From NCBI GenBank assembly GCA_947303535.1, contig CAMYYQ010000024.1, positions 1 to 8,897 of the forward strand: a stretch of DNA of 8,897 bases. Direction: 5' to 3'. Below, piece by piece: positions 1-6,099 of this stretch. Position numbers and translations under genes: made by a program. This stretch comes from an uncultured Ruminococcus sp. Lineage in GTDB: Bacteria; Bacillota_A; Clostridia; Oscillospirales; Ruminococcaceae. Below the pieces are notes generated by a model. It was not told the DNA's origin and did no database searches. It saw only the letters and a list, made by a program, of their open reading frames with translations. The number at the start of each line of letters is the position of its first letter. The first letter of the stretch is position 1.

Positions 1-240
1 TCATCTTCGGAAGAAAAATTCATCTATATATCCATTGTACAGAACGATAACAAGATCAGGATATGCGTAATGAATTCCTCGGACGAGGTAGATACAGAAA
101 ACCTTACAACTAAAAAGACAGGTGTCGGTCACGGCATAGGCGTCAGCAGTATCCGTGAAGCCGTCGATCAGCTGGACGGTATCCTCTCTTTTAAATACGA
201 AAAAGAAATATTTACAGCTGATATCATGATAGCATATTAA
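1..240 (+). CDS. GHKL-type sensor histidine kinase, AgrC/VirS-like, C-terminal end only
   Basis: Frame 1 is open from the first base to TAA at 238-240 and gives the last 79 residues of a protein whose start lies outside the window. The fragment is the end of a GHKL ATPase (HATPase_c_5) domain: beta strands around residues 7-24, an asparagine-serine pair after the strand (NSSD, 25-28), then TTKK followed by the glycine box GVGHGIG (41-47), and a terminal helix and strand pair (SIREAVDQLDG, FTADIMI). The HGIG box after a TxK stretch is typical of quorum-sensing kinases such as AgrC, VirS and ComD, which bind ATP here and phosphorylate LytTR-type response regulators. The sensor half is missing, so the signal is unknown. 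A hairpin terminator follows directly, so the gene is the last of its transcript. The family is fairly sure; the peptide-sensing role is inferred. Confidence 0.85.
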   Translation, partial: SSSEEKFIYISIVQNDNKIRICVMNSSDEVDTENLTTKKTGVGHGIGVSSIREAVDQLDGILSFKYEKEIFTADIMIAY

Positions 241-267: not shown

Positions 268-318
268 ACATGAAATCACCAAAGACTTTAAATATTAATA
301 AATAATGAACAAAAATGT

Positions 319-347
319 GCATTTCACGCTAAAAAACTACATTTCAC
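319..347 (+). promoter_or_regulatory. Tandem direct repeat, candidate LytTR response-regulator site
   Basis: CATTTCACGC occurs twice, at 320-329 and 340-349, exactly 20 bp apart, which places both copies on the same face of the helix. The 9-bp cores are GCATTTCAC (319-327) and ACATTTCAC (339-347). Known LytTR regulators bind 9-bp direct repeats about 21-22 bp apart just upstream of a promoter; the second core closely resembles the pneumococcal ComE half-site ACATTTCAG. The sites end 9 bp before a -35-like box. The kinase encoded just upstream is of the class that pairs with LytTR regulators. The match to the class is by eye, and the cognate regulator is not in the window. Confidence 0.55.
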
Positions 348-356
348 GCAAAAGTA

Positions 357-390
357 TTGATTTATGCCATTTTATGCGCTATTATATAAT
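357..390 (+). promoter_or_regulatory. Promoter of the structured RNA region
   Basis: TTGATT (357-362) is followed after 17 bp by TATTAT (380-385). A consensus TATAAT at 385-390 is the alternative -10 box but leaves a 22-bp spacer; it could be used if an activator on the upstream repeats replaces the -35 contact. The first choice puts the transcript start near 391-393, right at the foot of the first hairpin, which favours it. Confidence 0.55.
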
Positions 391-391
391 T

Positions 392-620
392 TAATATCTG
401 CTCCGTCTGAAAGCAGATATTTACTTACGGCTTAGAGCCGTAACGAACTCCGCTTAATTTGGCTTTGTCCCCTGCGGAGACCCTTGACACTTGGTCATTC
501 GGACTTCCCCCCTATACCGAATATGGAGTCTCCGTGATAGGAAATCTTACGATGAAAACAATCTTTGTTTTCTTCTTGAAATAATATAGCAAAAAACTCC
601 CGAGGAACGGGAGCTTTTTT
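392..620 (+). ncRNA. Candidate structured small RNA with C-rich loops
   Basis: This stretch has no convincing gene but many hairpins between a promoter and a terminator. H1 is a 10-bp stem, 393-402 with 412-421. H2 is an 8-bp stem, 425-432 with 436-443, loop TAG. H3 pairs CTCCGC (448-453) with GCGGAG (474-479) around a 20-nt loop that holds GTCCCCT. A competing stem pairs CGGAGAC (475-481) with GTCTCCG (528-534). H4 pairs ATTCGG (497-502) with CCGAAT (517-522) around a 14-nt loop with six C (507-512). H5 pairs GAAAACAA (554-561) with TTGTTTTC (565-572). The terminator at 591-620 ends it. No + strand gene follows, so it is not a leader or riboswitch of a downstream gene. C-rich loops that pair with ribosome binding sites are known from staphylococcal RNAIII and other Firmicute small RNAs. 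I do not recognise a named RNA family; function is inferred from layout only. Confidence 0.5.
591..620. terminator. Bidirectional Rho-independent terminator
   Basis: CTCCCG (597-602) pairs with CGGGAG (608-613) around the loop AGGAA. Six A (591-596) lie before the stem and six T (615-620) after it, so it works in both directions: it ends the structured RNA on the + strand and the six-gene operon on the - strand, whose last stop codon is at 625-627. Confidence 0.85.
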
Positions 621-4207: not shown

Positions 4208-4786
4208 ATGACAGATGCCGAACTGAAAGAGCTTATGTCTCAGTCTGTACCAAAATGTCACAGAGCAGTCTTTGACCTGTACTGTAACTATGTCTACGCG
4301 ATAGTTATAGATATCCTCAGAAATTGTGGGACTCGTGAGGATATAGAGGATTGTGTCAGTGATATATTCATGAAGCTTTATAAGCGTTTTGACGTAAATA
4401 CTGACTTTTCAGGCAACCTCAAGGGATACATAGGTACGATATCAAGGAATACAGCTATAGACGCTTTTCGCAGACTCAGCGTCCATAACAACAGGAATTT
4501 CTCTATAGACGAAAACAACATGGAAGAACTGCGTTCTGACGACTCATTGATGGAAAATTCAGAAAAAAAGGAACAATCACGTATCATTCTCGGAAAGATC
4601 AAGGAATTGGGAGAGCCCGACTCAACTATTATAATCCAGCAGTATTATTACAACCGGACAGCTAAAGAGATCGCTGAGAGTATCTCTATGTCATCTGCTG
4701 CCGTACAAAAACGCAGCAGCCGCGCAAAACAAAGACTTAAATTACTTCTCGCTGAAGCAGGCATTGGCAAGGAGGGGTTGATTTGA
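4208..4786 (+). CDS. RNA polymerase sigma factor, ECF subfamily
   Basis: The 192-residue product has the two domains of an extracytoplasmic-function sigma factor. Region 2 covers about residues 18-90: the helix VFDLYCNYVYAIVIDIL, the acidic segment REDIEDCVSDIFMKLYKRF that contacts core polymerase, and KGYIGTISRNTAIDAFRR, which reads the -10 box. A polar linker (about 91-125) leads to region 4 (about 126-182) with the helix-turn-helix NRTAKEIAESISMSSAAVQKR that reads the -35 box. The frame is open well upstream, to 3890, but GGAGG lies 8 bases before the ATG at 4208 and the promoter is at 4107-4135, so the longer form is rejected. Its stop codon overlaps the TTG start of the next gene by three bases, typical of a sigma and anti-sigma pair. 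The target genes are unknown. Confidence 0.93.
   Translation: MTDAELKELMSQSVPKCHRAVFDLYCNYVYAIVIDILRNCGTREDIEDCVSDIFMKLYKRFDVNTDFSGNLKGYIGTISRNTAIDAFRRLSVHNNRNFSIDENNMEELRSDDSLMENSEKKEQSRIILGKIKELGEPDSTIIIQQYYYNRTAKEIAESISMSSAAVQKRSSRAKQRLKLLLAEAGIGKEGLI
4771..4777 (+). promoter_or_regulatory. Ribosome site that supports a TTG start
   Basis: GGAGGGG lies 5 bases before TTG at 4783-4785, which overlaps the TGA of the sigma gene (4784-4786). A second site, AAGGAG (4795-4800), stands 9 bases before an in-frame ATG at 4810, so a product shorter by nine residues is also possible. Confidence 0.6.
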
Positions 4787-6099
4787 GTTTATTTAAGGAG
4801 ATTGATAACATGATCATTGACAAAATTTCGGAGGAATTCCCTGTTCTCACGGATGCTGAGAAGGAGAGAATTTTTGCAATGAGCGAAAAAAAGTACAATA
4901 TGGATAACCAGGAAAAAGATAACGTGGGTTTCGATGATGAGTCAGAAGTAAGAGGAGTTGAACAGTATAACAGACCGATATTATCAAGATTAGCAAGCAT
5001 TGCAGCAGCTGCAGCAATACTCGTAGTAGGTCTTTCCGGCGGTACGGTATTTATGAAATACAGAAAGAATAATCCCGCAACCGAACAGATAAGATCTACT
5101 GAGGCTGTTTCAGAGATCGCTACAAAGGAAGCAAAACACGACATTGCAGCAGAATATGCAGAAATAGCTTACAAGCTGACAAACAGATTTGCAGAACTGG
5201 AAAATAAATATTATAATCATGCATTAAGTGTAGATAATGATGATACTCTTACATTTAGTGTGTATAATTCAGATGCACCGGGACAGAAAGCAACTGAAAA
5301 ACACTATTACAGAGTTACCGATCCTGATTTTCAGTCAGGTGATGACCTGAAAAATGATATAAAAAGTCTGCTTACAGATGAGTTTTATAACAGACTTTTC
5401 AGTGTAAATTCAGGCAACGACTATGAGACGCTCATTATCGCGCCTCAATACGCCTACCTTTTCACAAACAGCGATTTCGACAAGGATCTCAGCAAATATG
5501 AAAACAATTCGGCTATAGACTTAGCAGATGTTAATTATCATTCACTTGATTTCATTACCTATAAAGGCGGATTCTATGTTTCATCATTCCATAATCCGCC
5601 CGTGGAAAGCGGCAGCTATTCAAGCTATCCGAATGTTATAAAAATAAAGAAAAATGGTTTCTCGGCAACTCTGTTTGCAAATTTCAAGCCTTTCATCAAC
5701 ACTGATAATTCACAGATAGGCACAAATCTGCAATTCGACTTCGTTTGCGAAAACGGCGAATGGAAGATAAGTGATATCATCATAGGTCGTAATATGGAAA
5801 GTGCAGCAGCATATGCTATCAAGGACTATTTCATAAACGACTGTGAAGAATACAATATCAAAGACCTTATGATAACAAAGGATAAATTTATTAATGACCT
5901 TGAAGAGGATGTTAAAATTTTAAGCTACAATGATGATAACAGCTGTAAGGTAGTCTGCGTCATAAAAGACAAGTATGGCAATGATTTCCTCGAATTCAAC
6001 GGAAATGTTGTATTCACATATGACGGGTTCGTATACGCCAGGGCTAATGATCGTTCCGGAATTGAACTTACCGATGTTAAGGTAAAACAAATCAAATAA
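4783..6099 (+). CDS. Probable anti-sigma factor, single-span membrane protein
   Basis: The 438-residue product has a cytoplasmic N-terminal part (about 1-65) that begins FKEIDNMIIDKISEEFP and VLTDAEKERIFAMSEKK, one membrane span after PILSRL (about 68-91), and an outside region of about 345 residues. This is the layout of an anti-sigma factor that holds the upstream ECF sigma factor and senses something outside the cell. The outside part seems to have two alpha/beta halves: the first runs to about WKISDII (around 330) with a YYRVTDPDF...LKNDIKSLLTDEFYNRLF stretch that faintly recalls IseA-type or NTF2-like folds, the second covers the last 100 residues. No zinc-binding HxxxCxxC motif of the common anti-sigma class is present, so it would be another type. 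The TTG start at 4783 is preferred because it couples to the sigma gene and keeps the first helix. Role is inferred from position and layout. Confidence 0.75.
   Translation: MSLFKEIDNMIIDKISEEFPVLTDAEKERIFAMSEKKYNMDNQEKDNVGFDDESEVRGVEQYNRPILSRLASIAAAAAILVVGLSGGTVFMKYRKNNPATEQIRSTEAVSEIATKEAKHDIAAEYAEIAYKLTNRFAELENKYYNHALSVDNDDTLTFSVYNSDAPGQKATEKHYYRVTDPDFQSGDDLKNDIKSLLTDEFYNRLFSVNSGNDYETLIIAPQYAYLFTNSDFDKDLSKYENNSAIDLADVNYHSLDFITYKGGFYVSSFHNPPVESGSYSSYPNVIKIKKNGFSATLFANFKPFINTDNSQIGTNLQFDFVCENGEWKISDIIIGRNMESAAAYAIKDYFINDCEEYNIKDLMITKDKFINDLEEDVKILSYNDDNSCKVVCVIKDKYGNDFLEFNGNVVFTYDGFVYARANDRSGIELTDVKVKQIK

Follow-up and report, generated by a model that had tools for sequence, protein, structure and literature searches.

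An agr leader orphaned by gene loss may persist as a free-standing regulatory RNA in a Ruminococcus genome

Introduction

Beside the gene for an AgrC-like sensor kinase in an uncultured Ruminococcus sp. lies a stretch of some 230 nt that is predicted to be transcribed and folded, and that ends in a terminator with no gene following it on the same strand. The question raised by this locus is what such an RNA is and whether it still does anything. The DNA analysed, referred to here as the window, is the 8,897-nucleotide stretch at positions 1 to 8,897 of contig CAMYYQ010000024.1. A first-pass annotation of the window had proposed an agr-like circuit whose output is a quorum-regulated, RNAIII-like effector RNA. 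The RNA proved to be homologous to the 5' leader of agrBD mRNAs rather than an independent RNAIII. Its retention as a regulatory RNA is a reading to which we give an even chance.

Organization of the locus

The window opens with the 3' end of the gene for a GHKL (AgrC-like) sensor kinase (positions 1-240, plus strand; PF14501, E 1.5e-13), in agreement with the first-pass annotation, and a full-length relative of this gene is found in locus L001. The two terminators that had been called are also apparent as terminator-like hairpins on the plus strand, one located 3' of the kinase gene (241-258) and the other with its core at 597-613. The 20-bp-period direct repeat noted earlier corresponds to an exact LytTR-type double site, CATTTCACGC-N10-CATTTCACGC, at 320-349 (plus strand, 0 mismatches), and no match to it arose in 200 shuffles (0/200). 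The promoter that had been placed downstream of the repeats fared less evenly. A promoter-like pair, TTGATT-17-TATTAT (357-385, plus strand), scores 9/12 and similar elements are seen by eye in the same place in relatives, but the window holds 22 promoter-like matches where its shuffles average 23.3, so that the call rests mainly on recurrence in relatives. From the position of this pair, the 5' end of the RNA would lie near 392. The RNA itself (392-620, plus strand), recognised from its fold, a covariance model, covariation and conservation, is closed by a predicted intrinsic terminator at 591-619 that is terminator-like on the minus strand as well, where it would serve a convergent DUF4153 gene. 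This gene ends at 625, beyond the RNA. The earlier description of the RNA as free-standing in the window is borne out.

Judged by protein identity in the best segment, the closest relatives of the window are Ruminococcus flavefaciens YAD2003 (92%) and Y1 (79%) in a scan of one genome per species that gave 14 loci, which places the window nearest to R. flavefaciens. Elsewhere in the window (4208-6099), a sigma-70-like factor gene is followed by a gene for a probable membrane-anchored protein without a Pfam match, a pair that in our reading resembles a sigma/anti-sigma pair.

The gene for the regulator lies outside the window, and its domains were taken from L001, with the genes of other relatives read as open reading frames. 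In L001 a LytTR response regulator (PF04397 and PF00072) directly precedes the full-length GHKL kinase (PF14501), and a second, inverted copy of the site is located upstream of the regulator, facing a divergent family-2 glycosyltransferase gene. Of 125 Ruminococcus genomes, 9 contain the exact double-site pattern, at 18 places in all, and the reversed control contains none, which upholds the view that the repeats are a recurrent site. All nine of these genomes carry the RNA. The LytTR regulator that partners the adjacent kinase is the most likely activator of transcription from 320-349. At a further locus, L147 (G016:C11:74029), a LytTR-type double site lies shortly before a possible transposase gene on the opposite strand, which we read as if an insertion had separated the promoter from its gene.

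Distribution of the RNA

A covariance model, R1, was built from nine sequences and matched 17 of the 125 Ruminococcus genomes, with 16 of the matches at this locus; the match in G114 was discarded as it falls inside a gene that we read as encoding a pseudouridine synthase. A DNA search of the same 125 genomes gave matches in 20, some of them to the double site alone. In a family-wide sample of 396 genomes the model matched only G001 and G016, both already known, and the RNA therefore appears to be confined to one part of the genus. A search of a phage collection returned three records with short matches (E 0.4). When the window was compared with Rfam by cmscan to an E value of 5, there was no match to RNAIII and all matches fell below the gathering score, as anticipated in the first-pass annotation, which knew of no described RNA of this kind. 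An Rfam scan of ten loci, two of which have this leader (L060 and L068), returned only 5S rRNA and tRNA.

Homology to the agrBD leader and loss of agrB and agrD

In 8 of the 16 RNA-bearing genomes (G016, G005, G019, G119, G106, G022, G072 and G004), the RNA runs straight into an intact gene for AgrB (PF04647, E 3.7e-36 to 7.1e-40). A frame bearing ACWFWFNQPKVPE or close variants, which we take to be an AgrD precursor from its appearance, follows AgrB in all eight and is present in none of the other eight; in G016 this open frame starts inside agrB. The RNA is thus the agrBD leader in these genomes, and the ribosome site of agrB sits there within a predicted hairpin. At the locus in the window agrB and agrD are absent, and what is present of the former is a start remnant on the plus strand, GUG VIGNLTMKTIFVFFLK stop (534-584), in frame with the AgrB N-termini VIGKLSLKTAVFF. 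The frame after the hairpin reads VIGNLTMKT.. where AgrB has VIGKLSLKT.., and then stops.

AgrB was not found at the locus in 6 of the 16 genomes (G001, G002, G009, G090, G049 and G078), in which a terminator is seen by eye after the RNA, and in G065 and G028 the agrB frame is broken after 13 codons. These losses fall into three groups in the tree, namely the flavefaciens-like genomes with G090, G049 with G078, and G065 with G028, if agrB is ancestral, as the start remnant in the window suggests. The rooting of the trees is weak: the paralogous-regulator outgroup has a branch length of about 2.5, and the tree with this root rests on the regulator, with the kinase included for one genome only, while the kinase was used for 11 of the 16 genomes in the other locus tree. 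A second AgrB is encoded elsewhere in 15 of the 16 RNA-bearing genomes, G019 having only the one at the locus. Where this other AgrB was inspected in free-standing genomes (the five G001, G002, G009, G090 and G078), it adjoins another regulator, and no double LytTR-type site was seen in the stretch examined near the separate AgrB loci L098, L099, L100, L101 and L104. The agr circuit proposed in the first-pass annotation is retained in part. A LytTR regulator, a GHKL kinase and, in eight relatives, AgrB and AgrD are associated with the RNA, but the signal genes have been lost from the locus in the window, which makes the description 'quorum-regulated' uncertain.

Folding and covariation

The plus strand of 392-620 is predicted to fold with -65.8 kcal/mol (z -4.35), and none of 200 shuffles did as well. 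The minus strand also folds better than all of its 200 shuffles (z -5.09), so that energy is no guide to strand and was dropped as evidence for it; the plus strand was chosen from the double site and the relatives. All elements described below are on that strand. Hairpin P1 (393-421) presents UCCGUCUG in its loop and is followed by hairpin P2 (425-443) and by CUCCGCUUA (448-456), which is invariant in 17 of 17 sequences and directly preceded by an A in 15 of them. CUCCGC within CUCCGCUUA can form the 5' arm of an alternative helix, P3, by pairing with GCGGAG at 474-479. A further helix, P4, joins CGGAGAC (475-481) to GUCUCCG (528-534) in the minimum-energy fold of all 15 full-length copies, and is predicted to cover the former ribosome site of agrB as far as the start codon, of which it takes in the first base. 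Between the arms of P4 lies a C-rich hairpin, UUCGGACUUCCCCCCUAUACCGAA (498-521), set apart by its sequence identity among some of the free-standing copies. Hairpin P5, GAAAACAA/UUGUUUUC (554-572), belongs to the predicted fold and reads GAAAGC/GCUUUC by eye in G009. Hairpins with C-rich loops had been reported for this interval; the hairpins are there, but a genuinely C-rich loop is confined to the one at 498-521. Another C-rich segment, GUCCCC (467-472), falls where two foldings compete.

In a nine-sequence alignment to which no structural fitting was applied, 94.4% of cells are paired and 8 of 20 pairs have changed on both sides, a number reached by 4 of 500 shuffles, while versions with the structure slid along the alignment gave three or fewer. 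In an alignment of 17 sequences fitted to the model structure, the values rise to 95.8% and 11 of 20, four of the five measures exceed those of every one of 500 shuffles, and no slid version has more than four both-side pairs. The fifth measure, which counts further pair types, was equalled or exceeded by 491 of 500 shuffles with 17 sequences and by 500 of 500 with nine. The signal is carried by P1, with both-side changes in 3 of 6 scored pairs, and P2, with such changes in 8 of 8 over the 17 sequences. These are compensatory changes of the sort that the first-pass annotation would lead one to expect among homologues. P3 is almost invariant and hence not assessable by covariation, and the covariation of P4 is not above that of the shuffles.

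Proposed role of the freed leader

The reading to which we give an even chance, drawn from sequence comparison, is that an orphaned agr leader survives as a regulatory RNA, driven by a LytTR regulator and similar in its working to RNAIII or VR-RNA. The locus would be an agr-type quorum-sensing locus without its former signal genes, in which the neighbouring LytTR regulator turns on transcription at the double site and the transcript is the former agrB-agrD 5' leader, now closed by a terminator. Acting in trans, the transcript would pair through exposed C-rich segments (the UUCCCCCC loop, GUCCCC and CUCCGC) with stretches rich in G at the ribosome site or in the 5' UTR of target mRNAs, and a candidate for such a target is the mRNA of the divergent glycosyltransferase, whose gene has the same kind of site. 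Both the transcription of the RNA and its action in trans are inferred.

A bolder version of the proposal, which we advance tentatively and regard as somewhat short of an even chance, is that the leader was already dual-purpose, serving as a translation switch for agrB and as a regulator in trans, before it was freed several times, independently, by the loss of agrBD. A receptor pair would then drive an effector RNA without a signal of its own at this locus, in an RNAIII-like output that evolved from the leader of the signal operon itself. Should the proposal hold, the related species would display, from intact through newly broken to completely freed, the stages by which an mRNA leader can become a regulatory RNA in its own right. 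It would also suggest that cellulose degraders of the rumen may retain an agr receptor and an RNA output without the signal genes of the locus, and would thereby be eavesdropping or sharing a signal. The presence of agr genes in rumen genomes has been noted (PMC10838665).

Conservation after the loss and alternative explanations

It is possible, though unlikely, that the RNA is a leftover agrBD leader, still transcribed, which has been functionless since agrBD was lost and has simply not yet decayed. The loss of agrB and agrD is clear, G065 and G028 resemble recent breakages, and the former ribosome site and start are decaying (by eye, the start codon of agrB is gone in G090 and the ribosome site in G002 and G009). 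Such a relic would also fit the observation that, over its full length, the RNA does not clearly surpass four other intergenic stretches of the window in conservation, with 222 of 229 positions identical to YAD2003 against 457 of 488 (p 0.07) and 199 of 227 identical to Y1 against 419 of 488 (p 0.56). However, the same 222 of 229 stand against 517 of 645 at the fourfold sites of five window genes (Fisher p 2e-11), and P1-P3 match Y1 at 84 of 88 positions where the fourfold sites match at 361 of 585 and the intergenic stretches at the 419 of 488 just given (p 0.014). By these yardsticks the constraint beyond that of ordinary intergenic DNA lies in the 5' half and is not clear for the whole RNA; the segments after 480 are merely 66-77% identical to G009.

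Two further observations are difficult to reconcile with simple decay. The C-rich hairpin at 498-521 is identical at 24 of 24 positions in G001, G002 and the distant free-standing copy of G090, and at 23 of 24 in G009, whereas it has 13-17 positions in common with the four agrB leaders compared. Elsewhere in the RNA, G090 agrees with the window at 8 of 25 positions in P2, 6 of 17 in the P3 loop and 6 of 22 in columns 98-120, and the contrast between hairpin and remainder within this one genome has a p value of 1.5e-9. In G049 and G078, P1, P2 and CUCCGCUUA have been retained; the absence of the C-rich hairpin there tells against the preferred reading. The pattern, as read from these alignments, is the one expected if the RNA rather than a reading frame is kept.

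A second alternative, ranked after decay and likewise improbable, is that P1, P2 and CUCCGCUUA bind a protein, a ligand or another RNA, opening the ribosome site in agrBD mRNAs by a choice between P3 and P4, and that the free-standing copy titrates the factor or has some duty other than pairing. P3 and P4 have GGAG in common and are mutually exclusive, and UCCGUCUG is nearly and CUCCGCUUA fully invariant across leaders and free-standing forms alike. A decoy of this kind gives no account of why the C-rich hairpin has stayed fixed in the free-standing copies of G090 and the flavefaciens-like genomes but not in the leaders, and its switch would rely on P4, for which covariation offers no support. 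It is very improbable that the region is mainly a 3' antisense or terminator region for the DUF4153 gene, as the two-way terminator and the end of that gene at 625 might suggest, for in the eight leader forms agrB and agrD come after the RNA and P1-P3 are the same there.

Least probable is a small peptide gene, with either a 16-aa frame (534-584) or a 41-aa frame with a TTG start (459-584) as its product. The window and G001 have both frames open, the longer one differing by a single residue in G001. The reading was nevertheless set aside as largely contradicted by the relatives: in G009 the residues differ and a stop interrupts the longer frame, G002 diverges and reads on past the position of the window's stop, and the start is absent by eye from G090, leaving no conserved protein in the interval of the kind that would have told against an RNA.

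Candidate targets

For the preferred reading, in which the freed leader regulates target mRNAs by pairing, the 5' UTR of the glycosyltransferase is a candidate lead that has partial support. As judged by eye, GCAGGGG is present in this UTR wherever the RNA has GUCCCC (nine of nine genomes), accompanied by CGGTATGGGG in seven of the nine, while in the six other gene-bearing genomes GCAGGGG is lacking from the UTR and GUCCCC from the RNA, a co-occurrence that involves related species and few independent events. The candidate complementary segments are CCCUAUACCG and CGGUAUGGGG. The longest ungapped pairing between RNA and UTR was equalled by no more than 9 of 200 shuffles in 7 of 15 genomes (G001, G002, G016, G005, G019, G119 and G065), with the best match in G002 lying elsewhere than in the C-rich hairpin. 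It was weaker in G028 (18/200) and G022 (14/200, at another site) and at chance in six genomes, namely G106, G072 and four of the six free-standing ones: G009 (58/200), G090 (155/200), G049 (176/200) and G078 (124/200). The glycosyltransferase alone therefore cannot explain the retention of the RNA. Gapped duplex energies gave no signal for this pair except in G019 (4/300).

The complement of the CUCCGC segment, TTAAGCGGAGT, gave 23 listed matches in 16 genomes, including the RNA itself in eight, and was rejected as a target seed: of nine other loci examined, four belong to a dispersed repeat of G090 and five are scattered. The complement of the C-rich loop, TATAGGGGGGAAG, with up to one mismatch, gave 17 matches in four free-standing genomes and 18 in the reversed control. 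Three exact matches are the RNA itself, and 4 of the other 14 lie by eye just before an ATG: one in G001, at a gene that we read as encoding a glycosyltransferase-like protein, one in G009, at a gene read as encoding a long protein, and two in G090. None of these places recurs between the four genomes, so that they yielded no conserved target for the C-rich loop.

Other stretches with LytTR-type sites in relatives

A second stretch that has a LytTR-type site but lacks any evident gene was observed in ten genomes (L034:1583, L024:1586, L079:1836, L080:2024 on the minus strand, L025:1590, L085:1605, L053:1595, L055:1092, L050:1471 on the minus strand and L073:2156 on the minus strand), with a looser relative at L074:3459. 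The copies have the common start TTGCTTGTGATGAGCA and, in most, C-rich runs such as ATCCCC that are followed by hairpins terminator-like to the eye. They adjoin a gene that we read as acetyltransferase-like. By its appearance this stretch encodes a further free-standing RNA belonging to the same regulon; four of its loci were scanned against Rfam and had no match. Downstream of LytTR-type sites in L081, L082, L084, L137, L146 and L078 is a common 5' leader that by eye carries CAATAC(C/T) early on, (G/A)GTATTG farther along and a CAGTAAYATC-like motif that resembles one in the second stretch. The next gene reads as encoding a secreted protein in L082, L084, L137 and L146. The dispersed repeat of G090 (L163, L166, L168 and L169) contains TTAAGCGGAGTAC.

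Comparison with known systems

RNAIII carries hld and is about 514 nt long, and staphylococcal agrBD sits on a separate transcript, RNAII. Like RNAIII, the window RNA is structured, has a LytTR-type site and adjoins the gene for an AgrC-type kinase, and one of its loops is C-rich and suited to G-rich ribosome sites. It differs in its length of about 230 nt, in the lack of hld and of any RNAIII match, and in its homology to an agrBD leader. RNAIII acts by loop-loop and ribosome-site pairing, and RNAII and RNAIII are two transcription units (PMC4691137).

The window RNA, which would likewise be driven by a two-component system and pair with a 5' UTR, is comparable to VR-RNA of Clostridium perfringens. 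The regulator of VR-RNA, VirR, is of the LytTR type with repeat boxes, and we know of no homology of VR-RNA to a leader, whereas the window RNA is found in an agrBD locus. VR-RNA is described as a 386-nt non-coding RNA that is driven by VirS-VirR and pairs with a 5' UTR (PMC4691137). In Clostridioides difficile, the RgaS-RgaR system has a regulator with direct repeats like those of VirR, and agrB1D1 and the small RNA SpoZ are both under its direct activation (PMC10602386). There the RNA and agrBD are separate loci, while leader and agrBD are in line in the relatives of the window and the RNA stands alone in the window itself. Among the matches listed in a search of the open-licence literature, none describes this RNA, and none describes an agrBD leader set free by the loss of its genes. 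If the proposed pairing holds, the window RNA works in the manner of RNAIII and VR-RNA while being a member of neither family.
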